Shown: positions 47,501 to 62,006 of the stretch, one piece after another
Layout of the letters: the number at the start of each line of letters is the position of its first letter
Position numbering within the stretch: position 1 is the stretch's first letter
Assembly (NCBI GenBank): GCA_028687545.1
Contig: JAQTZZ010000020.1
Coordinates: forward strand, 1 to 64,000
Direction: 5' to 3'
Source: Candidatus Wallbacteria bacterium
GTDB lineage: Bacteria; Muiribacteriota; JAQTZZ01
Length of the DNA: 64,000 nt
Program-made: the position numbers and the translations under genes
The notes under the pieces: model-generated
The model's input: the letters and a program-made list of their open reading frames with translations, nothing else
Told to the model about the DNA's origin: nothing
Database searches by the model: none

Positions 47501-50500
47501 TTATTGCAATACTGCCAATTTAGCGCTCGCCTGAAGGCGCTGTTCACCAGAAACAGCTTCAAGCTTGATCAGATAAGTGCCGTTGGACACTTTTCTTCCA
47601 CTGCTGTTTCGCAGATCCCAGGTCATGAAGTTTGAACCTGCGGTGATGTCTCCGCTGAAGGTCTTTACTCTTTTGCCTGAAGCATCGTATATTTTGATGG
47701 TTACAGAATCAGCAGCTGCGCCGAGTGTGTAGTGAATCATCGTGACGTCACCCGCGGGATTGGGTACCATGTAAACTTTGCTCAGGGTGAATCCTGCGGC
47801 GACCCGCAGTGGAGCTTTGACAACGCTCTCGTTCCCGAACAGGTCTCTGACTTTCAGTGACAGGCTGTAATCTCCGCTCTTCAATGTCATGCCTTCCGAG
47901 TCGAGAGTCAGGATGCCTGTTTCAGAGTTGTAGGAAGGCTTCAGCGGCAGGTTGTCCGCCGTCAGGCTGATGGAACCCGGGTCGATGCCGACACCGTTGT
48001 CAGAGATCTTGAATTTCAACACTGAAAGTCCGGTGACGAACTCCTTTAATTCACCATCCTGCGACAGTGACGGAGGAGTATTGTCCTGGAAATATCCGAT
48101 AGACGACAGATATCCGACTTCAGCGGTGATTGTGCTGCCGGAAACTTTTTCATGCAGCCATTTCCATTTTCCATTGAGATCCAGGTAGAACAGTCCAGCT
48201 TTCTCAACAGGCTGCTGGTTAAGCGAAAAGATGAGCGGCAGTTCCGGTTTCAGTCCGTTGCCGATCAGGTAGGTTGGACTGACTGATACCAGTTCGCCGT
48301 CTGTGCTGGAAGGAGCGGAAAGTTTGGCGGGATCAGAGGAGACTCCCCCCTGAGGAAGCAGGAACAGGAGCGTCTGATCCTTGAAAGCCCTTGCCGGATA
48401 GGTCAGGCCTGCCAGGCGGTCAGGGGAGCTCAGGCTTCCGCCGGTCGCTCTGGTCTTGACGACAGTGAACGAAACCTCAGTACTGCCTGCGAGATCATCG
48501 TGGTCAATGCCTGAAGCTGCAATCACGCCGTCTCCAAGGTAATAATCCTCGGTGCTGACTTTCAGCGTTCCTTTGTAATAAGATCCTGTCAACTGGGAAA
48601 GAGTGACCTTGACCGATTCTTTGTTGTTCTGGGTGACCCAGATTTCCGGAATTGAAGCGGATTTAAGGGTTTCTGAAGGCTGGCAGACCAGCATCAGCTG
48701 GTCGTTGACCAGAGGGGCGAAGAAGTAACCTATGGCAAAGCCTGGGTGCAGGTTGGAGGTGAATTGCAGATTATTGAGATTGCCATACACATCCTTGCAA
48801 TTGCTGCCATAGATTTCTATGCTGCCGCCGAATGTGGTGTCGCTGTAATTGATTGTGCCTTCGCCCACATAGAGATTTCCGTTGTAGCTGATCTGAGTCA
48901 GCGGGTATCTGGTACCGGAATGGGCCGATGAAGCGAACAGGATCGAAGGTGTTTGAGAAGTGTCCATGTCTGAACTGAAGCGCACTTTTAACTGGACCTT
49001 CCATTTCTTGCTATAGGTGGCCTGCACGATCGAATCTACGGAAATGATCTGAGTTACATTGGCTACGATTCTCAGGCTGTTGGAGGAGATGTAATTGACC
49101 ACATCGCCAGAGGCTGCACTGATAGACGCCGGATAGTTTTTATTATCCAGCAGGACTCCCAGTGCGGTACCTGAGGGAGCGTCGATTGCGGAAGGCGTGC
49201 TCATGGCGAAGATAATTCTGACAACTGAGGCTGATGTGCTCTCAAGGGTATCGCCCAGCAGGATTTCGAAGCTGCCCCGGCCGCTCTGGTAGTTGACCAC
49301 GTATGTGTGCCCGGTAAGAGCCGCTTCACTGGTGACATAGGTGTACTGGGTCGAGCCTACGCTCAGATAGGAGATCACTTCCGATGAGGAAGCGGCTTTG
49401 AAATGATAAGTACTGGCAGGAGTGACGATTATCTTGTTGAGTCCGTTGTCATTGCTCTGAACCGTGGGTAGAATTGCCAGATTGAAGGTGATATCCGCAG
49501 AAAGCGGGACAGTGTTTGGTGTCACCTCTGCCATTACGCTTGTCGCATTGGCCGAAACCTTGACAGTCCGGTCTGTTGTTCCGTCACCGTTATAATCCTT
49601 GGCTTGCGGGGCGATCACTGAAATCGTGTCTCCTGAGTTCCTGATCTGGGATGGGAAGTCGAGACTTGCATACTTCTGAGAAGGAGCGACCAGGGTGATG
49701 GTTGTTTGAACTTCGAAAGTAGCGCCGGTCATGAAATCACCTGTTTTGAAGCTCAGGGTATGGCTGGAAGAGTTATAAACCGGGGGTGAGACCGGGTCAT
49801 AGTAATTGTCATGCAGGGAGTTTCTATAGACCGCGACAGTCGGTGCCGGACTGCTCTGATAAGTGAACTGAGACGGGATAGTGATTTCCACGGAATCGAT
49901 GCCTGCAAAGGATGAGCCGGGATTTGCGTCGAAACTGATATAGTAGGTATAGGTCTTCGTTTGAGTAGTCAGGGCATAACCCGGCGTGATCCAGGCATAG
50001 GCAGTGTTGGGCTTAATGATTGATTTCACGCCTTTCAGGCTGTTGCTGTTGTTGGAATAATTCGGGTCTACGTCGCCTGGCACGCTGATTGTGACTGGCA
50101 GAGATCCGGTGATCCCGCTGTTGTAAACATCAGCTGCGAAATTGAACTGGCCCTGTGCCAGTGCAGTAATCGGGAACCAGACCTGGAAAAGGCGGTCGCT
50201 GTAAGTTGAGCCGTAAACAGAGCCCAGTGTAATTTCCAGCGTGTTTCCGCTTGCGGATGCCAGAGCTTCACCGGCTGCAGGTGTACCGGAATAGATTGTG
50301 TTGAGGTTGACTCCATTGATTGCTATAGTAATCTCGGTAGTTCCCATGGTTGCATTGGAAGTATAGATTTTGAAGCTCTTGATGCCGGCATGGGTGACAG
50401 GGATGGAGGGCTTGAAAGTCAGGGTCACTATTTCCCTGCTGTTGACCGTGATGTTTGCAGGGGCGGCTGTGTTATATGGATTGTTGATTTCCAGGGTTCC

Positions 50501-53500
50501 GCCTGCGATTACTCCCGCTACAGCGATGTTGCTGCTGCCTCCTGAACGGATGTTTGTGACGAGTTTAGGAGAGATGATGGAAGGATTATCGACCCAGAGA
50601 GAGAGAGTCTGGCCCGTCGGGTAGTCGAGCACAGAAATTCCTCCGGTTCTGGGAGGCTGAGCCTTGAAATTGATGGTGACGATACGGCTGTCCGTGATAG
50701 GTGTAGTGAGGGTGACTTCCTTGCTGTTGATGATTGCCACAGAGTCTGTCCCGATTCCGCTTACCGCTATGGCCTCAACCGTAAGATTCAGATGATTGGG
50801 CAGAGACAGCTTGAACTTCTGAATACCTGCATCGCTGCCTCCGGTAAGGGTGGCGTCGACCTGCACCTGATAGTGATGATAGGAAATGGCGTCCAGCGGA
50901 GCTACCAGATTTGGTGTGACTGAATAAGCCAGGTTGGTTACCAGGCGTTTTGTGTTCAACTGCTGCTGGACAAAGAGTCCGTTATAAACGCAGGGGACAG
51001 GGCTGGAAGCCTGGACATTGTCTACATACAGGTTGAAAGGCAGGACATCGTTGGCTGTGGATGTGGTATGGCCGCTGAAATAGATTTCCACTGTGGCTTT
51101 CCTGAGTGTGCTGGTGGTGATGGCATTCTTAAGCCTGATTTCCATTGTGGAACCGCTGACTGAAGCGCTCAGCACTTCTACAGTGGACGAATCAACGATC
51201 AGCTGATTCAGGACCGGAGAACTCAGTTTATTATTGGAAGGGAGGATCATGAGTAATCTGTCGACTCCTGTATTGAGAGCATCGACTTCCAGAGTCGTGG
51301 TATACCTGAGAGTTACGTCGCTGTCGGTGGATACATTGAATTTTCCGGTCGGGACTCCGTCCATCAGCACTTCCAGTGTCGTCATGGCAGTGGAATTGGC
51401 CGGATAGCCGGACTTGATCTCAACTGTGCCTGCAGGGACGAATTCCATATTCTGGGAATTGGCGATGCCGCAGACCAGCTCGCCTGTGACCTCACCTCTG
51501 GTGGCGAGCATTTTAAAGGCGATTTCAACCGGCATCTGGCTGACTGAGACTGCGTTGTCCAGCGTGATTTCTATGGTATGTGCACCCGGGAACTGAGCGC
51601 TGTTGTAACTGAATCCAACAGTCTGGCTGGCGACCTTGACGCTGGTCAGGGAGAATGCTTCGAATGAGTCCGGGTCCTGCGGGGAAACGAAGTAGAGGCG
51701 GAAGAAGTTGATACCCGGGCTGCCTGCAGGGATCAGCGGGCTTACAGTAGCCGTGAGATCGATTTTATTGACTCTGTAGGGATCAGGAGTCATCACTGTT
51801 GGAGTGAGTGCGAGTGAGCCTCCGCCTGCAGACTGCATGATATAGAGAGTCTGCGTGTTGGCATTATTCGGATTGGAGTCAGCGTTGCCGACCGCAGTCT
51901 GCATGTTGATCTGAGGATAATTCATGCCTGGATAGCAGAAGTCGATCCAGGATTTCTGAGCCTTGCCAGTCAGGTTTTCAGGGCCGCTGTCCACATAGAA
52001 AGTGGCCTCAATGGTCTGCGAGAGCTTGAGAGGTTCCGAATCCGAGAAAATCAATTCCGCAGTGGAATTATAGGCGCTGGTTTCCCAGGTGCAGCTCAGG
52101 CCGCTCCAGCTGCTTCCTCCAACCAGTGTTCCTCCGATTCTGATTTCCTTAGTGCCCTTGATTTTAAGCCCGTCCAGCAGGATTACAGCCCTGTTGACCC
52201 AGGCATTGTTGGTGATGCTGATGGTCGGATAGATGTAATAAGTGACTTCTGCAGAAGTCCGGTTGGGCCAGACGAGATAGGGGTTGATTTCAGCCACTGC
52301 CGAGTCTGCCGGTTTCCTGGTCTGAATGTTCAGCCTGCTGAAAATATAGATAGGGGTGTTACCGTCATTGTCTACGCCGTCGATTTCACCTGCGACTGCC
52401 TTTACTTCACAGCTGGGATTAGTATAACCTCCAGAATAGGATGAAGTAGTGACATTGTCGGCCTTTACTTCCACAGTAACTCCTGCAGGCGCGTCTACAG
52501 CGCTCTTCGCAGTGACTGTGAAGAATACTTCCAGAGTCTTGACCAGGTCTGCTGCATCCAGGTTGTTTCCGCCATACAGCGACAAGGTTGCTGATGTGGG
52601 AGTAGTCAGGTCCACTGAAATTGTGAGCGGATGTGTAACGCTTGCCTGGTCTATGTAATCCATGCTGAAATTGCTGGGGGTGGACGGCAGGTTATTGATG
52701 ATCAGTTTTTCAATGCCTGAGTCGTAAAAGTTGAATTTCGGTGCTAAGGACACTTTCATCTGGAAATCGCGTCCAGGGTAAACGATACGCGGGTTGACTT
52801 CAGCTTCCAGGGTAGTGACAGGCTGGAGCCAGCGCACCTCAGCCGTGGCTGCAGGGCTGGTTTCACTGTTGCCGAATGAGAAGGGATTTCCAATGGTGTC
52901 GCTGCCTGTGACCCAGAACTTTACTATCCCGGATCTGCCGATATTACCGCAACCCGCAGCCAGATTCACGGCTTTGACAGTCACTGAAATCGTCCCCTGA
53001 TTGCCTGAAAATGACATCAGGGACGCGGAAAGTGAATTGGACTCTCCGAACGCATCTTTCCAGTAAAGTCTGGTCGAAGTGGTGTCAAACTGATCAGGTT
53101 CATAGATCACAAAGTCCGCTTCCACACTGTCTGCATTGCTGTGCACAAGGTCGTTGGTATGGTATTTTAAAAACCAGTTTACAGAATCTATGTTGTGGCA
53201 CAAGCTCGGATTAGCAGGATCATAGTAATCCTTGATCACGAAGCTGCTGAGCACAGGAGCCTTGAAGTCGATTTCCTTCTTGTAAAGGGAAACGTCTGAA
53301 GTGTCCAGTGTGTTCCAGGCCATGTCTGTAACAGATACTGATGTGGTGTCTCCCACCACGATTTCATAAGTGGCGTCTGCAAGAGCCTGTTTCAAGGTAA
53401 CAGTCATGGTCCGGTTGCTGATGGTATAACCCTGGAATTTTGTGGAAGTACCTGCAAAGATGTCCACATTCTTTGTGTCATAGAAAAGATGCAGGTTGGG

Positions 53501-56500
53501 ATTGACGGACGCCGGTGTGGCTGAGCTGCGTATATTTTCGCTGAAAGTGAGGTAAATCAGCCTGTTGTTCTTGTCATAGACAACTGTCTCCAGGGTGGGA
53601 CGGATGTTGTCGAAGATGAAACCTTTGTAGTCTGTAGTCACCATTTTGTTCAAGGCTTTGTCATACGCATTGGCGACCTCGACTGTCACGGCGCCTGCTG
53701 CAAGCGTGTAGACCGGAGCAGTTGTTTCAACGGTTCCGGAGCGGTAAGTGTCGTTCAAGCGGGCGGTAGTGACAAATGTTCCTTCGGATGTTGAGAACCG
53801 GACCACGCTGAGGCCGTCGTCAATGGAAATTTCAGGGGTAAAACTCGTTTCCATGGTATCAGAAAAGATTATTTCTGCAGTCAGTTTCCCGATTCCGATG
53901 TAATCCAGCGAGTTATTGAGCAGACGGCCGTTGTGGTACATCTTGAAGGTAGAGACTGTCGGAGCACCAATGTTCACTTCATAAGTGTAACCTGAGGTGA
54001 CTGCAGTCATCACATTGCCTGCCACGTCATAGGCTCTGGAGATCTGCAACGCCAGGTTGCCCTGCATTGAAGGCACTATGCTCAGCTCACCCGTATATTT
54101 TTCATAGACATGGCCATTGATGACTTCAGCAGTATAGCCTTTGTTGGTAAGCGTATAACTTCCAAGCATCACAGTCGGCACTCTTGTGTAATCCATTCCA
54201 TATTCGACTGTATCTGCTGCTTCTGAAGAGTCATAGAAATAGATGGTGAAGACTGCAGTCTCCTGGGTCAGAATGTTGCCGGAAATGGAAGGTGTGACTG
54301 ACACAGCCCAGGTGTCGGGAGCTACTATGGGAGCAATATTGTCCAGATAGACTTCCAGAGTTTTCATTGTCAGGTTTTCAGCTGTATCAAAACCATAGAA
54401 CTGCACTTCGTGCGAGCCTGTGGTCGCTGTATTGGTCGAATGGATCGTCAATGTGCCCTTGTAAATCCCAAGCGGGCTCTCGGCCAGCTCAATCGTGTCT
54501 GTCTGCTTGCTGTCCGGCCCATTGGAATTGACAGTGAAGTTGGCGACTTCCACTGATCTCAGGTGCGCTTCGCTGCTGGCCCAGAAATGCATGGTGTCCG
54601 TATTTTTGTAAATAAGATCCTCGCCTGTCATAGCGATTTCCAGGGTTGGAGATTTGAAATCTGTGTAAAAGAGTTTGGACAGATTGATTTCCATGGTATT
54701 GCCTGCAGCGTCGTGACCGAGCATCACTTCCAGGGAAAGCGTGGCTTCGGAAGTAAAGATGGTACCGTCGATCGTAACGCTTCCTGTCCAGGTTTTGCAG
54801 TCGTCGCTCCAGATGATGTTGTCTTTCACTTCCAGGGTCGCCTTGGGATTGATTTGAAGCAGAAATACTTCAGGCGTCAAAGGAAGCGGTGGCGTCAGTG
54901 TACTTTCTGTAGTCATAGCTTCTGTGAAAGTGATACCGAAAGTCACTATTTCACCGGAACGGAACCAGTCCGGAGAAGTCGGTTTGATGCTGGAGATTAT
55001 TGGTTTTGTAACATCCACTGGATACTTATGTGATGTGTCCGGATCAGTTTCCAACGGGTTCCCGTTTTTGTCGTGAGCTCCTGAGATCGACAGCTCTTTG
55101 GTGCCGTCGCCGAGCGAGCTTTCGATCGTATAGACTCCGATCCAGGAAGTCTCGGAAGTGGTCCAGCCTTTGTTTGCACCGACAGCAACTACGGTTTTAC
55201 CGCCGAATTTCACAGTCAGGGTTTCGCTGGTTTTCATGATTTCAGTGAAAACTATTTCAAAGGTGACTTTCTGGTTGAGAATGAAAGGCCCGTCAGCAGG
55301 CAGATCTACTCCAAGAGAATGATATGGCTGTGAGGGAGTTGTAACAACTTCTAATGTAGGAGGGGTAGCGTCAATGGAATATTGGAAAGTCGCAGGATCA
55401 GGGGTCTGCAGATTGCCTGCTGTGTCCTTAGCGCCGGAAACCGAGAGTTCCTTGGTGCCATTGAAACTTTCGTCAATCGTGATCTGACCGTTCCATTTCT
55501 TTTTATCTCCAGACCAGCCCGGATTGGCGGTCAGGGCTTGCCCGTTCAGTGTAATTGTAGGCACAATCGCTATATCCATGGTATCGCTGAACCGGACTTC
55601 AAAAGTCGTCAGCCCGAAATGCAGCGGACCTGGAGGAGTCGGCGAGACTTCCACTGTAGGCTGACTGGTATCGACTGCGAAAGTGGTTTCATATGTGTCT
55701 GTGGAAAGAGTTTTTCCTTCCAGCCAGTGCCAGACCTGGTCGCGTGCGCCGATGATCAGCAGTTTGCAGTCTCCGTTCCAGCCTGCAGGTATGGCTGATG
55801 CGGCTGTCCCTTTCCAGGTAAGACTGTCAGCCTGCCAGCCTCCGCTGGACGGATTTACTAAAATCTCAGGGCTGCTGCTGAATACGAGCGATACTTTCAT
55901 TTCAGCAGTTGTACTCATTTTTGTCCCATTGGGATCGCTGAAAACTATGGTGAAAGATTCCGATGCTCCCCCGATGAAAGGTGCTGCCGGAAGAGGTGTG
56001 ACGCTTGCCACTGTAGGATTAGAGGTGTCGAGCACATGCGTAGTGGTATCATTTGGCCTGGCATTTCCTGCTATATCTTTGACTCCTCCTACGGTTAACG
56101 TGGAAGTTCCGTTAAATGCGTCATGCGGGACTGTGATTTCTCCTGACCAGATATTGTAAGTATAGTTATTGATCCCGTCATTGTATGTTCCTGTTCCGAA
56201 GTAGGTAACAGTGATCGCGCCTACACCTGAAAGATTCGCTACTACCACTGAAGAAGTGTCGATCCCGGTGTTGTACGGGCTTGCACTGTAAGTAGATCCG
56301 CCGATATTGTCGTCTTTGTAATAGATTTTCAGGCAGAGCACTTCATCGCTGAATGGCGAATTGTGATTTGTGTCTTTTGCTCTGAGGAGGAAGGCTGAGC
56401 AATAAGGGACAGTGGCGTCAAGAGTGATGTCGATAGTGGTGTTCTTACCGTTTCCATAGTAAAAGTAAACTCTGTAAGTTCCGCTTTCCCTGCCTGTAGT

Positions 56501-58096
56501 GTTCCAGGTGGTAGTATAGCCGTATTCGCTGGAGCCGTATGGTCCGCTTGCAACCATGGCTGTTTGAACCATTGCCGATCCTGCCGATGGGGCTATTTCT
56601 CTTACCTCTGCTGTCGCCTTTCCGCCAGTGGTATCGTTTTTAGTATGCAGATAAAGCACAATCTGCTGGCCTGCATGGTATTTTTCGTCGCAGTCAGAAG
56701 GGGTAGCAGAATCATAGGTTTCCACGCTGTCCAGATCAGCATCTCCGATACTGGCGTCCACCCAGTATGAATGAGCCGTATCTGTATCCATTGTGTTGCC
56801 GACAGTGTCTTTGGCGGTTGAAATTGAGAGCGTACGCGCAGACAGTCCGCCCCAGACGGCAAAGGTTGTGACAGTGACATTGCCGCTCCAATGTGTGGTA
56901 TCCGAATAGCTTCCGCTCACTGAATGTCCGTCCAGTGTGACGGTCGGAGCGACACTGCCATTCATATCTTTTGAAAAAGTCAGTGCCAGTGTGATTGTGC
57001 ATTGGGTAAAAGGATGAGAGGCATCAGCTCCTCCAGGAGGATTCGGGGTTGCAACAACACCGGTTACTGTTGGCTTGACAGAATCCACGTTGAAAGTGTG
57101 GGTGGCATCAGATGCCATCACATTGCCCATCGTATCCTGGGCATTGGTGATAGTGAGAGCCTGGGAACCACTTTTTCCAGAGGGAATAGTCACACTTCCG
57201 CTCCAGTGCGTGGCGTCCTGCCAGGATCCGGCCAATGCAACTCCGCAGAAAGAAGCGCTACAGGCTACACTCTGATTCATGTCTTCGCTGAAGGTGATAT
57301 TGAAAGTCACGCTCTGTCCGTTGTAAAAAGTGGTGGGCTGGGCCGGGACAGTAGCCACGCCGCTTACAGTTGGAAGATCGGTATTTACAGAATATGACGA
57401 CCCATTGTATGTATCCATCACATTGCCTGCTCTATCAGTCACGCCGGTGGCTACTATCTGGCAGGAACCATTCAAGCCGGCTGTGCTGCAGCTGCCTGTC
57501 CAGGATGTGCCAGACCAGCCAGTGGTGGCTGTAAGTACTGTGCCACTTACTCCACCTAATTTAACAGTCGGTGCAATGGTTGTATCAAGGCCTGAGCCGC
57601 CTGTGTCGCTGAAATTGAGCGTGAAGGTGACTGTTTCATTGCCCCAGGGAGCATTTGCATGCACGCTTCCTGAAGCTGATGTGACACCAGTGCAGGTGGG
57701 TTTTGTATTATCTAGGATTACACTGGATTGAGATACTGACTGATTGCGGATTTCATCGGTACTGTATAATGAATCAATCGTATATGTTCCCTGAGCTAGG
57801 CTTGTGGTATTCCAGACATAATAAAATTCACTGTATCCGATATGTGCGACATAAGTCATTCTTTTTACGCCACTTCCATCAGATACTTCGCAGGTGCCAT
57901 ATTGATAAAGAACAGGCGGATTTGAGGTGTCTTTTTCGGTTGTGAGCAGCTTGATGCGGATGTTTTGTCCTGCATGATAAAATCCGTCATTATCTGTCGG
58001 GGTAGCATTATCATAGGTGGACACCGTAGGATAGGCCCAGACAGTGGTTGTAGAAATAAATATCAGAATCAAAACAAGGGACAGAAATCTGCTCAT
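47501..58096 (-). CDS. Giant secreted Ig-like repeat protein with FlgD-type C-terminus
   Basis: A 3531-residue exported protein (signal peptide about 1-21). The first third has many Big_5/Ig-like units of about 95 residues with the pattern FSxxMNxxVxP, HWSGxVTI, and AxDxxGNxM; an initial module with YHAGQxIxxxL appears near residues 20-110 and again near 455-560. From about 1750 to 3000, a second repeat class recurs (VxPxxVxPxxxIxFxxxxxPxxxNDxGIxxxxIxxP), resembling DUF11-like arches. The last 90 residues are a FlgD Ig-like domain (VTIKIYDASGKRVKTF and SGRKVSNGTYLIKLEA). It has no obvious enzymatic domain; a role as surface adhesin or structural filament is inferred. It has a GGAGG ribosome binding site. 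Long R3 hairpins flank the gene on both sides. Confidence 0.9.
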   Translation of the reverse strand: MSRFLSLVLILIFISTTTVWAYPTVSTYDNATPTDNDGFYHAGQNIRIKLLTTEKDTSNPPVLYQYGTCEVSDGSGVKRMTYVAHIGYSEFYYVWNTTSLAQGTYTIDSLYSTDEIRNQSVSQSSVILDNTKPTCTGVTSASGSVHANAPWGNETVTFTLNFSDTGGSGLDTTIAPTVKLGGVSGTVLTATTGWSGTSWTGSCSTAGLNGSCQIVATGVTDRAGNVMDTYNGSSYSVNTDLPTVSGVATVPAQPTTFYNGQSVTFNITFSEDMNQSVACSASFCGVALAGSWQDATHWSGSVTIPSGKSGSQALTITNAQDTMGNVMASDATHTFNVDSVKPTVTGVVATPNPPGGADASHPFTQCTITLALTFSKDMNGSVAPTVTLDGHSVSGSYSDTTHWSGNVTVTTFAVWGGLSARTLSISTAKDTVGNTMDTDTAHSYWVDASIGDADLDSVETYDSATPSDCDEKYHAGQQIVLYLHTKNDTTGGKATAEVREIAPSAGSAMVQTAMVASGPYGSSEYGYTTTWNTTGRESGTYRVYFYYGNGKNTTIDITLDATVPYCSAFLLRAKDTNHNSPFSDEVLCLKIYYKDDNIGGSTYSASPYNTGIDTSSVVVANLSGVGAITVTYFGTGTYNDGINNYTYNIWSGEITVPHDAFNGTSTLTVGGVKDIAGNARPNDTTTHVLDTSNPTVASVTPLPAAPFIGGASESFTIVFSDPNGTKMSTTAEMKVSLVFSSSPEILVNPSSGGWQADSLTWKGTAASAIPAGWNGDCKLLIIGARDQVWHWLEGKTLSTDTYETTFAVDTSQPTVEVSPTPPGPLHFGLTTFEVRFSDTMDIAIVPTITLNGQALTANPGWSGDKKKWNGQITIDESFNGTKELSVSGAKDTAGNLQTPDPATFQYSIDATPPTLEVVTTPSQPYHSLGVDLPADGPFILNQKVTFEIVFTEIMKTSETLTVKFGGKTVVAVGANKGWTTSETSWIGVYTIESSLGDGTKELSISGAHDKNGNPLETDPDTSHKYPVDVTKPIISSIKPTSPDWFRSGEIVTFGITFTEAMTTESTLTPPLPLTPEVFLLQINPKATLEVKDNIIWSDDCKTWTGSVTIDGTIFTSEATLSLEVMLGHDAAGNTMEINLSKLFYTDFKSPTLEIAMTGEDLIYKNTDTMHFWASSEAHLRSVEVANFTVNSNGPDSKQTDTIELAESPLGIYKGTLTIHSTNTATTGSHEVQFYGFDTAENLTMKTLEVYLDNIAPIVAPDTWAVSVTPSISGNILTQETAVFTIYFYDSSEAADTVEYGMDYTRVPTVMLGSYTLTNKGYTAEVINGHVYEKYTGELSIVPSMQGNLALQISRAYDVAGNVMTAVTSGYTYEVNIGAPTVSTFKMYHNGRLLNNSLDYIGIGKLTAEIIFSDTMETSFTPEISIDDGLSVVRFSTSEGTFVTTARLNDTYRSGTVETTAPVYTLAAGAVTVEVANAYDKALNKMVTTDYKGFIFDNIRPTLETVVYDKNNRLIYLTFSENIRSSATPASVNPNLHLFYDTKNVDIFAGTSTKFQGYTISNRTMTVTLKQALADATYEIVVGDTTSVSVTDMAWNTLDTSDVSLYKKEIDFKAPVLSSFVIKDYYDPANPSLCHNIDSVNWFLKYHTNDLVHSNADSVEADFVIYEPDQFDTTSTRLYWKDAFGESNSLSASLMSFSGNQGTISVTVKAVNLAAGCGNIGRSGIVKFWVTGSDTIGNPFSFGNSETSPAATAEVRWLQPVTTLEAEVNPRIVYPGRDFQMKVSLAPKFNFYDSGIEKLIINNLPSTPSNFSMDYIDQASVTHPLTISVDLTTPTSATLSLYGGNNLDAADLVKTLEVFFTVTAKSAVDAPAGVTVEVKADNVTTSSYSGGYTNPSCEVKAVAGEIDGVDNDGNTPIYIFSRLNIQTRKPADSAVAEINPYLVWPNRTSAEVTYYIYPTISITNNAWVNRAVILLDGLKIKGTKEIRIGGTLVGGSSWSGLSCTWETSAYNSTAELIFSDSEPLKLSQTIEATFYVDSGPENLTGKAQKSWIDFCYPGMNYPQINMQTAVGNADSNPNNANTQTLYIMQSAGGGSLALTPTVMTPDPYRVNKIDLTATVSPLIPAGSPGINFFRLYFVSPQDPDSFEAFSLTSVKVASQTVGFSYNSAQFPGAHTIEITLDNAVSVSQMPVEIAFKMLATRGEVTGELVCGIANSQNMEFVPAGTVEIKSGYPANSTAMTTLEVLMDGVPTGKFNVSTDSDVTLRYTTTLEVDALNTGVDRLLMILPSNNKLSSPVLNQLIVDSSTVEVLSASVSGSTMEIRLKNAITTSTLRKATVEIYFSGHTTSTANDVLPFNLYVDNVQASSPVPCVYNGLFVQQQLNTKRLVTNLAYSVTPNLVAPLDAISYHHYQVQVDATLTGGSDAGIQKFKLSLPNHLNLTVEAIAVSGIGTDSVAIINSKEVTLTTPITDSRIVTINFKAQPPRTGGISVLDYPTGQTLSLWVDNPSIISPKLVTNIRSGGSSNIAVAGVIAGGTLEINNPYNTAAPANITVNSREIVTLTFKPSIPVTHAGIKSFKIYTSNATMGTTEITIAINGVNLNTIYSGTPAAGEALASASGNTLEITLGSVYGSTYSDRLFQVWFPITALAQGQFNFAADVYNSGITGSLPVTISVPGDVDPNYSNNSNSLKGVKSIIKPNTAYAWITPGYALTTQTKTYTYYISFDANPGSSFAGIDSVEITIPSQFTYQSSPAPTVAVYRNSLHDNYYDPVSPPVYNSSSHTLSFKTGDFMTGATFEVQTTITLVAPSQKYASLDFPSQIRNSGDTISVIAPQAKDYNGDGTTDRTVKVSANATSVMAEVTPNTVPLSADITFNLAILPTVQSNDNGLNKIIVTPASTYHFKAASSSEVISYLSVGSTQYTYVTSEAALTGHTYVVNYQSGRGSFEILLGDTLESTSASVVRIIFAMSTPSAIDAPSGTALGVLLDNKNYPASISAASGDVVNYISSNSLRIVANVTQIISVDSIVQATYSKKWKVQLKVRFSSDMDTSQTPSILFASSAHSGTRYPLTQISYNGNLYVGEGTINYSDTTFGGSIEIYGSNCKDVYGNLNNLQFTSNLHPGFAIGYFFAPLVNDQLMLVCQPSETLKSASIPEIWVTQNNKESVKVTLSQLTGSYYKGTLKVSTEDYYLGDGVIAASGIDHDDLAGSTEVSFTVVKTRATGGSLSSPDRLAGLTYPARAFKDQTLLFLLPQGGVSSDPAKLSAPSSTDGELVSVSPTYLIGNGLKPELPLIFSLNQQPVEKAGLFYLDLNGKWKWLHEKVSGSTITAEVGYLSSIGYFQDNTPPSLSQDGELKEFVTGLSVLKFKISDNGVGIDPGSISLTADNLPLKPSYNSETGILTLDSEGMTLKSGDYSLSLKVRDLFGNESVVKAPLRVAAGFTLSKVYMVPNPAGDVTMIHYTLGAAADSVTIKIYDASGKRVKTFSGDITAGSNFMTWDLRNSSGRKVSNGTYLIKLEAVSGEQRLQASAKLAVLQ

Positions 58097-58552: not shown

Positions 58553-58581
58553 TTGTCAAAATCGTCTTTTCGAGTTATAAT
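58553..58581 (+). promoter_or_regulatory. Strong sigma-70-type promoter of the secreted-protein pair
   Basis: TTGTCA (58553-58558) and a perfect TATAAT (58576-58581) are spaced by 17 bases. The expected start near 58588 gives a leader of about 47 bases, with GGGGGT as ribosome binding site before the ATG at 58635. Confidence 0.65.
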
Positions 58582-58634: not shown

Positions 58635-59450
58635 ATGAATAAGACAAAGCTCAGTATTCTCCTATTATTGATTCTATTTTCAATTCCGTCAATGGCTGTC
58701 ACAACCAATCCGGTCTGGCTGTATCCGAACCAGAACTATGCCTTCTACGTTTCCCCCACCAAGCTTCTCCGTTATGTCGAAGTCGAATGGAACGACATGG
58801 GCGGCAAAGCCATGGGTTACCTCTATGTCAACGGCATGTCCTACGGCGGCTATGACGTGGGCAACGGCATGGTCTACGGCAACCAGATCGTGCCTGACCT
58901 CGACGTCTGGACCAACATCAATGTTTTCGCCAATACAGCCTATATCAACATCCAGAACGATACAGTCCAGCTGTATGCCTGCAGAGTTCTATATTGGGAT
59001 CCTGTTGACCTGTATTCTTCTCCATGGTATTACAACGGCTGGAGCATGACCATCCCGATCGACAAGACCAAACTGGTGCGCTATATTGAGGTAGACTGGC
59101 GCAACAACGGCTTCTATACTTACGGCACTCTCTGGGCTAATGGATTCAATTACGGTTCGCTTTCAGTGGATTCCGGAAACTATCTTTATACCAATCTGTT
59201 TATCCCTGATACTGACCGCTGGTATATCAATAACTATATTGCAGGCAATGCGATCATTACCCTTACAGGCGGTTCTGCCCAGATATTTGCGGTACGCGTT
59301 ATCTATGCAGACAATGTCTCGCTCAATCCCTATCCGTTCCCGCAGCTGCCGCCCGGACCGTTCCCGCAGACCATTCCAGGCAGCTATCCTGTGCCTGCTG
59401 CCGGATCTCAGCCCACCGGCGGGCCGCATATAGTACCCAGGAAACTCTAA
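58635..59450 (+). CDS. Secreted two-repeat protein, paralog 1 (unrecognised family)
   Basis: A 271-residue exported protein (signal peptide about 1-21). It contains two tandem repeats of about 105 residues (about 24-130 and 131-235). Each has LLRYVEVEW or LVRYIEVDWR, a Gly/Tyr strand (GYLYVNGMSYGG, GTLWANGFNYGS), an IVPD or IPDTDRW segment, and ends with ALYACRVLYW or IFAVRVIYAD. The alternating pattern suggests a beta-sandwich, perhaps jelly-roll. The tail (236-271) is rich in proline (PYPFPQLPPGPFPQ). No cysteine pairs or catalytic motif are seen, and I recognise no family. The second paralog follows after 12 bases, sharing the same promoter. Confidence 0.75.
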   Translation: MNKTKLSILLLLILFSIPSMAVTTNPVWLYPNQNYAFYVSPTKLLRYVEVEWNDMGGKAMGYLYVNGMSYGGYDVGNGMVYGNQIVPDLDVWTNINVFANTAYINIQNDTVQLYACRVLYWDPVDLYSSPWYYNGWSMTIPIDKTKLVRYIEVDWRNNGFYTYGTLWANGFNYGSLSVDSGNYLYTNLFIPDTDRWYINNYIAGNAIITLTGGSAQIFAVRVIYADNVSLNPYPFPQLPPGPFPQTIPGSYPVPAAGSQPTGGPHIVPRKL

Positions 59451-59462
59451 AGGAGGCGGTCA

Positions 59463-60392
59463 ATGAATAAAACTATCCTGCTTTCGCTTCTGCTGCTAAC
59501 TCTGTCCGTGACAGCCGCCCCCCTGTATCTTCCTGGCGACGCTTATTTTATCAATGTGGACGCCGGACGCGTTGTGCGCTATATCGAGGTGGACTGGCGG
59601 AATTTTGACGGAGTTGCCGCCACAGGCACTCTTTATCTGAACAGTGTACCTTACTCCACTCTCCAGGTCGGGGCTGGTTCGAACTACCCCAACACCACAG
59701 TTTTCATGCCTGACATCAAACGCTGGGATGGTCTCAATACCTATATTTACAACTCTTACATTCTGATCGGCGGGTCTACAGTGGAGGTTTTCAACAGCAA
59801 GATCGTCTATCTTGATTATGTAGACCTGTACAACACCACCTGGTATTATCCCGGCTGGTCCGTATATCTGTCCCTGGATTCCAGCCGAATCCTCCGCTAC
59901 ATCGAAGTGGACTGGCGCAGCGGTTACTGGTGGGGGGCTGCCAATGCAACAGGTACACTCTATTGGGACACCAGCACTCTGGTCGGAGCAAAGAACATAG
60001 GGCCTGGAACTTATTTGTTCGGCAATCTCTTTCTGCCGGATTGTGCGCACTGGGGTGAAGAAGATTATGACTACGCCAATTTTCCAGGCATGCACTCATC
60101 AGGATTCATTTACATCCAGAACATGCCGGTCCAGATATTTGCCATCAGGATTGTTTACAACGACACAGGGTCTTTCGTGCCCTATCCGTTACCCACCACA
60201 GCGGGTGGATCTACCAGCTGGTCGTATCATTATAACCAGTATGTGGAGCCGTCACCTTCTCCCTACTATAACTATCCTTCCTATTCAACTTCCAGTTACA
60301 GTCCGCCGGTTCCTGCTTACCCGTATCCGCCCTACCATCCGACAGCTCCGGCCCCGGACAACACCCATCCGCCGAATTTCTCACCAAACTAA
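59463..60392 (+). CDS. Secreted two-repeat protein, paralog 2 with Tyr/Pro-rich tail
   Basis: A 309-residue exported protein (signal peptide about 1-18) paralogous to the preceding gene. Two repeats again show RVVRYIEVDWRNF and ILRYIEVDWRSG, TGTLYLN and TGTLYWD strands, MPDIKRW or LPDCAHW, and terminal FNSKIVYLD or FAIRIVYND. The tail is long (about 235-309) and rich in Tyr, Pro and Ser (SPSPYYNYPSYSTSSYSPP), suggesting an extended or surface-exposed stalk. A ribosome binding site AAAGGAGG precedes the ATG. A strong terminator follows at 60411. Conserved tryptophan and tyrosine positions suggest carbohydrate or polymer binding, which is speculation. Confidence 0.75.
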   Translation: MNKTILLSLLLLTLSVTAAPLYLPGDAYFINVDAGRVVRYIEVDWRNFDGVAATGTLYLNSVPYSTLQVGAGSNYPNTTVFMPDIKRWDGLNTYIYNSYILIGGSTVEVFNSKIVYLDYVDLYNTTWYYPGWSVYLSLDSSRILRYIEVDWRSGYWWGAANATGTLYWDTSTLVGAKNIGPGTYLFGNLFLPDCAHWGEEDYDYANFPGMHSSGFIYIQNMPVQIFAIRIVYNDTGSFVPYPLPTTAGGSTSWSYHYNQYVEPSPSPYYNYPSYSTSSYSPPVPAYPYPPYHPTAPAPDNTHPPNFSPN

Positions 60393-60410: not shown

Positions 60411-60446
60411 AAAAAAGGCTGAGAGTGTAAACTCCCAGCCTTTTTT
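60411..60446 (+). terminator. Intrinsic terminator after the secreted-protein pair
   Basis: AAAAAAGGCTGAGAGT-GTAA-ACTCCCAGCCTTTTTT forms a 16-bp stem with one mismatch, ending in a T-run. It separates the secreted pair from the pseudopilin operon. Confidence 0.88.
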
Positions 60447-60448
60447 AG

Positions 60449-60477
60449 TTAACAATTTTGTAAAATCAAGGTATAGT
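60449..60477 (+). promoter_or_regulatory. Candidate promoter of the minor-pseudopilin operon
   Basis: TTAACA (60449-60454) and TATAGT (60472-60477) are spaced by 17 bases, directly after the terminator. Transcription would begin near 60484, 25 bases before the TTG start at 60509, which has GAGGTG five bases upstream. Confidence 0.5.
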
Positions 60478-60508: not shown

Positions 60509-60943
60509 TTGCGGGAAAAGCGAGGGTTCACTTATATCGAAGCTCTGATTATCCTGATGGTGGTAGGACTTGGATTGATCCCTCTGATCGATCTCTGGAT
60601 CACCTCCTACAGGATGAACAATGCAGGATATCAGTATTTGCAGGCAAACCTGACTTCCCAGGAAATTCTGGCTTTATTGAAAAGCGCACAGCCCGAAGTT
60701 GTGAAAAAGGCATCGGAAAGTGGTGTTCCTCTCAAATCCCAGGACATCGGATATATCTTTAAGAGTGAATTTCAGAAATTTAATCCCCAGGCAGAGATCA
60801 AGGTCAGCGATTACGATCTTACTAACCTCTATCAGGTGGTGATCAGACTCAGCTGGGTGGAAGGAACGAAACGCAAACAGAGCGTCACTTACTACATCCT
60901 GAATTTCGCCTCCTGTAATTTCCTGAAAATTGGTGACTTATGA
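60509..60943 (+). CDS. Minor pseudopilin, PilV/GspI-like
   Basis: A 144-residue prepilin-like protein. The type III signal is MREKRG followed by FTYIEALIILMVVGLGLIP, with the cleavage glycine and the conserved glutamate at mature position 5. The rest is a small polar domain with QEILALLKSAQPEVV. Minor pseudopilins prime type IV pili or type II secretion pseudopili. It starts with TTG and has GAGGTG upstream. It is first of four tightly overlapping genes; the pair order I-like, J-like, K-like resembles GspI-J-K priming subunits. Confidence 0.82.
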   Translation: MREKRGFTYIEALIILMVVGLGLIPLIDLWITSYRMNNAGYQYLQANLTSQEILALLKSAQPEVVKKASESGVPLKSQDIGYIFKSEFQKFNPQAEIKVSDYDLTNLYQVVIRLSWVEGTKRKQSVTYYILNFASCNFLKIGDL

Positions 60944-61524
60944 GAGGTTTTACCCTGATCGAGGTTTTGATCTCTTTTGCGATAGTCAGCATTATCTTCG
61001 GATCAGTAGTTGGCGTGTTCAGAAATTTCATGTACACCCGGGGGAAGAACGATGACATGATGCGATACAGCCAGGAAATCCAGTTCCTGGAAAAGCAGAT
61101 CTATCTGGACTGCATCAGAATTTCGCCTGCACTCAGGCTTAATACTAGCGGTGATCTCTTTGTGGCTGGAGAAGAAACCGACCAGCCGATTCCTGAAGAA
61201 ATTCTTCTCTATGACACTGACGCCAACACGCAGAATGGTTATGAAGTGATGAGGATGTTTCTAGGAACGCTCAGCGCCCTGGACAGGAGAGAAAAAGTGG
61301 AATATTCCTTCAAGCAGGAAACCGGCAAATTGATTCGCAAATCAGGCAGCAAGAGTTACACTCTGGGGGAAAATCTTACTGAGTTCCACTTTTTTCCGCT
61401 GAAGCGGGGATTGAAACTTACCGGCAAGGAAAAAAAAGGCAAGACAGTCGAGGATTTTTCCACTGCCTTTTCTTTTCTGGACGGTTTTGTCAGGATCGAA
61501 CCAGGGGGAGAATACACGGAATGA
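60940..61524 (+). CDS. Minor pseudopilin, PilW/GspJ-like
   Basis: A 194-residue prepilin-like protein beginning MRGFTLIEVLISFAIVSIIF, a classical type III signal with Glu5 of the mature chain. The C-terminal part has the GspJ-like pattern EKVEYSFKQETGKLIRKSG. Its start overlaps the previous gene by four bases and its stop overlaps the next by four. It would be processed by a prepilin peptidase, which is not in the window. Confidence 0.85.
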   Translation: MRGFTLIEVLISFAIVSIIFGSVVGVFRNFMYTRGKNDDMMRYSQEIQFLEKQIYLDCIRISPALRLNTSGDLFVAGEETDQPIPEEILLYDTDANTQNGYEVMRMFLGTLSALDRREKVEYSFKQETGKLIRKSGSKSYTLGENLTEFHFFPLKRGLKLTGKEKKGKTVEDFSTAFSFLDGFVRIEPGGEYTE

Positions 61525-62006
61525 TGGCAAAACGCGGGTTGATGGGTCTGGCGGTGATAGTGGTGCTGGCTTTGGCTGCCGCCATTGCCTTAATCTACTG
61601 GAAAATGTCGTCTCAGGACCTGTTCATGGTTTTCAGGGAGGGTGAAAAGCTGAAGGCAGTGAATCTTGCCGAATCAGGTTTAAATTATGCTGTGGAAATG
61701 CTCAATGAGTCATACTACAGCGGCAAATGGCCTGTGCAGTCTCCAGGTCCCTCGCATCCCAAAGTCAGAAAAGAATTTGAAAACGGTTCTTTCACGATCG
61801 AGGACATCCATCCTGCCAGGGAACTTCCGCTCGATGGAAGAATCATGGATAAATTTTTCTTTCATCAGCCTTACAGGAATGGATATGGCACGATTTCAGG
61901 ATTTTACGATATTTACAGCGTTACAGTTGTGGCCAGAATGAACGCCAGCGGAGTTTCGGTCAAACTTTCCTCCCTGGTGAAAACGATCCAACTGGAGAAA
62001 AAATGA
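61521..62006 (+). CDS. Minor pseudopilin, GspK/PilX-like
   Basis: A 161-residue protein. MMAKRG is followed by LMGLAVIVVLALAAAIALIYW, a prepilin-type signal without glutamate at position 5, as in GspK, which caps the pseudopilus. The segment KAVNLAESGLNYAVEML matches the PilX_N/GspK-like helix. It is shorter than GspK and lacks the large alpha domain. Its gene overlaps both neighbours by four bases. Confidence 0.78.
   Translation: MMAKRGLMGLAVIVVLALAAAIALIYWKMSSQDLFMVFREGEKLKAVNLAESGLNYAVEMLNESYYSGKWPVQSPGPSHPKVRKEFENGSFTIEDIHPARELPLDGRIMDKFFFHQPYRNGYGTISGFYDIYSVTVVARMNASGVSVKLSSLVKTIQLEKK

Follow-up and report, generated by a model that had tools for sequence, protein, structure and literature searches.

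The window analysed here, a stretch of 64,000 nucleotides from a Candidatus Wallbacteria contig, carries two adjacent genes, hereafter W1 and W2, whose features are collected in Table 1. Both start with hydrophobic leaders, as read from their translations, and they are separated by a gap of 12 bases. The terminator hairpin that follows W2 was found by comparing folding energies with shuffled sequences (0/200 shuffles were equally stable) and was missed by a pattern scan. Since this terminator stands after W2 and a further promoter-like site precedes the pseudopilin-like genes, the pair looks like a transcription unit of its own. An earlier note, made from the letters alone, had described tandem secreted paralogs sharing one strong promoter and a strong terminator, next to a giant protein and a pseudopilin operon; this layout was recovered, the promoter being a sigma-70-like site by consensus match only.

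Table 1. Features of the W1/W2 locus, with positions in the window. E-values of the repeats refer to profile A1, of which all four repeats were part.
Feature	Position	Strand	Remarks
Giant ORF, divergent from W1	47501..58096	-	538 bases away
Promoter-like site, TTGTCA-17-TATAAT	58553..58581	+	sigma-70-like, 11/12 matches; consensus match only
Gene W1	58635..59450	+	leader, two repeats, Pro-rich 43-aa tail; 271 aa; ortholog in G001 (L010)
W1 repeat 1, predicted jelly-roll domain	58713..59000	+	HMM A1 E 2.8e-35
W1 repeat 2	59022..59315	+	HMM A1 E 4.0e-31
W1 Pro-rich C-terminal tail	59319..59447	+	13 Pro / 43 aa
AAGGAGG upstream of W2	59450..59456		
Gene W2	59463..60392	+	leader, two repeats, Pro/Ser/Tyr-rich 73-aa tail; 309 aa; G001 ortholog at 4.2e-70
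W2 repeat 1	59520..59819	+	HMM A1 E 1.7e-28
W2 repeat 2	59838..60167	+	HMM A1 E 1.7e-26
W2 Pro/Ser/Tyr-rich tail	60171..60389	+	19 Pro, 12 Ser, 12 Tyr / 73 aa
Intrinsic terminator hairpin, then T run	60411..60446	+	-20.3 kcal/mol, z -7.05
Further promoter-like site	60449..60477		10/12 matches; ahead of the pseudopilin-like genes
Pseudopilin-like operon, downstream neighbour, separate unit	60509..62006	+	first two genes conserved beside the pair in G001

Each protein contains two repeats of about 90-110 residues and ends with a low-complexity tail, and the tails differ in length as had been claimed. All six local alignments between pairs of the four repeats exceeded the maximum of 300 shuffles each, with z from 15.7 to 24.4 and 33-42 identities over 92-99 residues. 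The two-repeat architecture proposed on first reading was upheld, as was the PDxxxW segment, present in 4/4 repeats. The other proposed marks are not invariant: RYIEVDWR is exact in 3/4 repeats (W1 repeat 1 reads RYVEVEWN in translation), TGTLY in two of the four (the other two having GYLY and YGTLW) and the (F/Y)AxRIxY end in a single one, with near forms in the remaining three.

Sequence searches led to no named family, in agreement with the suspicion that the family was undescribed. The full W1 and W2 proteins had no Pfam and no NCBIfam match at E <= 10, and 28 copies of the domain gave nothing significant against Pfam (E <= 5; best E 0.016, in 1/28) or NCBIfam (E <= 1; best E 0.036, in 1/28). 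Similarly, PHROGs returned none for W1 and a non-significant best E of 0.13 for W2, and a profile search of PDB sequences gave no significant match (best E 1.1). There were no relatives in the viral contigs scanned, no phage homolog of W1 by tblastn and no plasmid match for a single domain from the sister genus. DUF2541 (PF10807), which by eye we took to resemble the domain, was rejected, its model having no match in the window's own genome at E <= 10. Listings of papers on Wallbacteria showed nothing about this family.

Relatives in the window's own genome (G000) had been turned up by single-protein queries, and profile A1 was built from 17 domain copies. Searched with A1, G000 yielded 20 copies at E <= 1 (weakest 2e-5), spread over 11 loci and 13 predicted proteins, both counted by hand from the list; these E-values are partly circular, since A1 was itself built with many of the strongest copies, those outside it being C8, C39, C15, C81, C2, C18b and the second of C30. 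The C81 copy runs past the end of its contig. Among 39 genomes sampled from the phylum, A1 matched three, namely G000 (20 copies), a genome of the sister genus (G001, 6 copies) and a third genome (G002, 4 copies), and none of the other 36. Five of 381 relatives matched: these three, and G115 and G257 with single distant copies. Profile A12, which extends A1 by the latter two copies, found single distant relatives in 4/8 genomes of another phylum, that of G115 and G257, and among 385 relatives of G115 only those same four genomes matched. Such HMM samples, which cover a fraction of known genomes, bound the spread better than a scan of genome contigs with two short peptide patterns, which reached only the sister genome and does not bound the spread of the family.

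The same gene pair occurs in the same order in G001, with matches to the first two pseudopilin-like genes after it and, farther downstream, FG-GAP-like and later genes in similar order (by eye, from ORF lists). Differences from the G001 orthologs at codon positions 1/2/3 amount to 0.21/0.19/0.57 for W1 and 0.41/0.31/0.60 for W2, a third-position excess as in genes under purifying selection that is clear for W1 and fainter for W2. In a tree of 28 domains, whose bootstrap was not fully settled and whose inner forks are mostly weak, the eight domains of RYIEVDWR pairs form one branch (support 95/92), within which the second repeats of W1 and W2 cluster (99/92), suggesting that the inner duplication predates that of the gene. 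RYIEVDWR is thus the mark of one subclade and not, as first supposed, of the family, the commoner core of the wider family being W-x-D-A-G-G...G-x-L-Y. Judging from the tree and the orthologous pair, the repeat would have been duplicated within a gene first and the gene next, both events preceding the split of the two genera.

The settings of the domain are diverse. Family proteins hold one to four copies (four in the C30 protein), and Pro/Asn/Tyr-rich tails are found in several members (C99, C8). The C99 protein of the same genome (L004:106-1755) associates the domain with a Glyco_hydro_26 match (PF02156; 27.9 bits for a cut-off of 20.2, E 1.9e-6) and with such a tail, made of NPYNPNPY-type repeats, and it adjoins ORFs resembling, by eye, a peptidoglycan amidase and a NagB-like protein. 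Compared by eye with the usual GH26 motifs, the acid/base Glu context of its GH26-like domain seems altered or missing; catalysis is therefore doubtful and the fusion may not be an enzyme. In G002, the C41 member (L050:1522-2601) presents the domain ahead of two thioredoxin-like (AhpC-TSA) domains; the match spans one in-frame TGA, so that the start of this gene is unsure. This member lies directly downstream of an ORF resembling an alpha-amylase. Five members (L024:1126-2172, L006:1093-2535, L044:1168-2163, L012:1-783 and L054:829-2136) have in common a further N-terminal stretch, about 100 residues long, before the jelly-roll domain, with a leader and then EK(V)-R--ISH----F-D----E-I-----, which had no Pfam match in the four of the five that were scanned. 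Two adjacent members (L005:411-1073 and 1057-1755) present a long Asn/Gln-rich low-complexity region before the domain, and the latter carries GKWNQNQNPAQTG-type repeats.

Structure prediction, which the earlier note had proposed together with HMM searches, gave a confident jelly roll. Indeed, the AlphaFold model of W1 repeat 1 (residues 24-124, five rows; pLDDT 91.5, pTM 0.82) is a beta-sandwich of ten strands and no helix. The model of two repeats together was weak (pLDDT 72.2, two rows), and for this reason no arrangement of the repeats is claimed. With the W1 repeat 1 model, Foldseek found nothing in the PDB at E <= 0.001, the best row being Cry3Aa at 1.5e-3, followed by CBM36, CBM6 and others, and nothing at the same threshold among viral models. 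VIA-align scored 76 of 989 chains at Z >= 8, with a best Z of 10.8; as, by the tool's own statement, the best Z is usually 7-8 when a model has no clear match, the jelly-roll assignment is strong. The list of VIA-align does not name every CBM family, and absence from it means nothing. W1 repeat 1 is thus predicted, with strong support, to be a CBM6/CBM36-type jelly-roll beta-sandwich, and the sequence similarity of the other W1 and W2 repeats suggests that they share this fold.

The best fold match was the C-terminal domain (390-489) of Kp32gp38 (6tku, 9qrm; Z 10.7-10.8, 93 aligned residues, rmsd 2.3-2.4, 14% identity), which differs in belonging to a Klebsiella phage depolymerase. A pectate-lyase CBM (8x8h) reached Z 9.9. 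The CBM36 modules of XynJ (2dcj/6kjl), Xyn43A (1w0n/1ux7) and Xyl (CBM36-1, 7ay3) present the same jelly roll (Z 9.3-9.9 over 89-92 residues; Z 9.9 for 1w0n, 7ay3 and 2dcj; rmsd 2.1-2.2 at Z 9.9), but the likeness is one of fold only: the family proteins have no significant profile similarity to them and no attached xylanase. CBM6 modules (such as 1gmm, 1uxx, 1nae and 2cdp; Z 8.4-9.6) also share the fold, whereas identity in the structural alignments is 6-10% and the family has no Pfam match. The CBM-like last domain of Cry delta-endotoxins (chain range 496-611) ranked high in the Foldseek search (TM 0.63-0.70, E 1.5e-3 to 8e-3), but with 11-13% identity, and W1 and W2 have neither the other Cry domains nor any sign of a toxin. 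The novelty supposed in the earlier note therefore held up in the sequence searches made and not for the fold: the W1/W2 repeat represents a new family within a known fold rather than a new type of protein.

As to function, the most likely role of W1 and W2 is to bind sugars at the cell surface or outside the cell; to the more precise reading, that they are secreted two-domain lectin-like binders of polysaccharide, we give a probability of about 0.5. Sugar binding is suggested by analogy, from the fold and from one fusion to a GH26-like domain. Presumably exported by their leaders, proteins with two jelly rolls per chain and a flexible Pro-rich tail would act as bivalent lectin-like binders of a cell-surface or environmental polysaccharide, or of the cell's own matrix, and may serve to attach the cell or to hold the matrix, as non-catalytic carbohydrate-binding modules do.

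The leaders and tails, the confident all-beta model, the CBM36, CBM6, pectate-lyase CBM and depolymerase domains in the top VIA-align rows, the C99 copy that shares its protein with a Glyco_hydro_26 match beside amidase- and NagB-like ORFs, the conservation of the pair in the sister genus and the expansion in G000 argue for this reading. On the contrary, no CBM is linked to the family in sequence, no Foldseek match reached E <= 0.001, the GH26-like domain of C99 may be no enzyme and the thioredoxin-like domains of the G002 member are not the setting of a CBM. Moreover, the jelly roll is also that of proteins binding no sugar, two of which (IFT25, Eph receptor) are among the VIA-align rows. It is possible, without being probable, that the jelly rolls make protein-protein contacts, as structural or protein-binding modules within a surface or matrix protein, with the Pro/Tyr tail spanning or cross-linking the envelope and no sugar involved. 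The missing CBM sequence signature, the occurrence of the domain in very different proteins (alone, in four copies, before thioredoxin domains) and the Pro/Asn/Tyr-rich tails of several members would fit such modules, but most of the best-scoring solved relatives of the fold are carbohydrate modules. True but diverged membership in CBM36/CBM60, with binding of xylan-type polymers through calcium, is very improbable. The fold (Z 9.9) and 22-24% identity to the XynJ CBM36 over 89 residues of structural alignment speak for it. However, the profiles do not: hhalign gave probabilities of 4.9 against a 60-residue partial CBM36 pair and 3.2 against four CBM60-like rows, two CBM36 rows obtained 5.7 and 5.0 bits with the family HMM, compared to up to 5.5 and 9.8 for shuffles, and the CBM60 model (PF16841) had no match in G000 at E <= 0.001. 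The calcium site in the sugar pocket of CBM36-1 consists of Asp367, Trp371, Asp372 and the carbonyl of Tyr291 (PMC9165906); these ligands could not be placed in the family alignment, the loop falling in gaps of the joint alignment.

The neighbours of the pair also offer an explanation, namely that the adjacent pseudopilin apparatus (type II secretion / type IV pilus-like) has W1 and W2 as its cargo or as accessory adhesins, which we consider unlikely. Pseudopilin-like genes follow the pair in both G000 and G001, an N_methyl match is located about 4.5 kb from the C28 copy, and the C8 copy and the C401 copy of G001 adjoin CpaB/CpaC-like genes (by eye), but between the pair and the operon stand a terminator and a new promoter-like site. 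With about 22 clusters of N_methyl matches over the cut-off in G000 (hand count), 2/11 domain loci have one within 5 kb, compared to about 0.6 expected by hand arithmetic; enrichment is thus not clear, and a link to pilus loci in general may be due to chance. At G000:C17:30803-30868, an N_methyl match is located within a 6779-codon open frame, a giant protein with a possibly pilin-like start. The giant protein beside W1 (3531 aa) ends with an FlgD Ig-like / secretion-tail-like domain (FlgD_ig E 4.3e-13; Por_Secre_tail 27.1 bits for a cut-off of 27). Its C-terminal 1000 residues match 37/39 genomes of the phylum, compared to 3/39 for the domain family; this region being nearly phylum-wide, the giant protein is no specific partner of W1 and W2, and the co-occurrence that the earlier note had proposed to look for came down to plain neighbourhood.

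The best reading of W1, W2 and their relatives remains that of a new family of secreted CBM-like (lectin-like) domains which has expanded in one lineage. More tentatively, they would form a new carbohydrate-binding (lectin-like) family that current libraries lack, multiplied in one lineage of an uncultured phylum, whose 20 copies in 13 predicted proteins may be used for matrix building or for gripping polysaccharides, through a site unlike those of CBM36 and CBM6. An unexplained repeat has thereby become a domain family that can be defined, of known fold, with 28 aligned copies and a testable function. Should sugar binding be shown, the repeat would become the founder of a new CBM or lectin family and open a first way into the surface biology of this lineage, which is known from metagenomes only.
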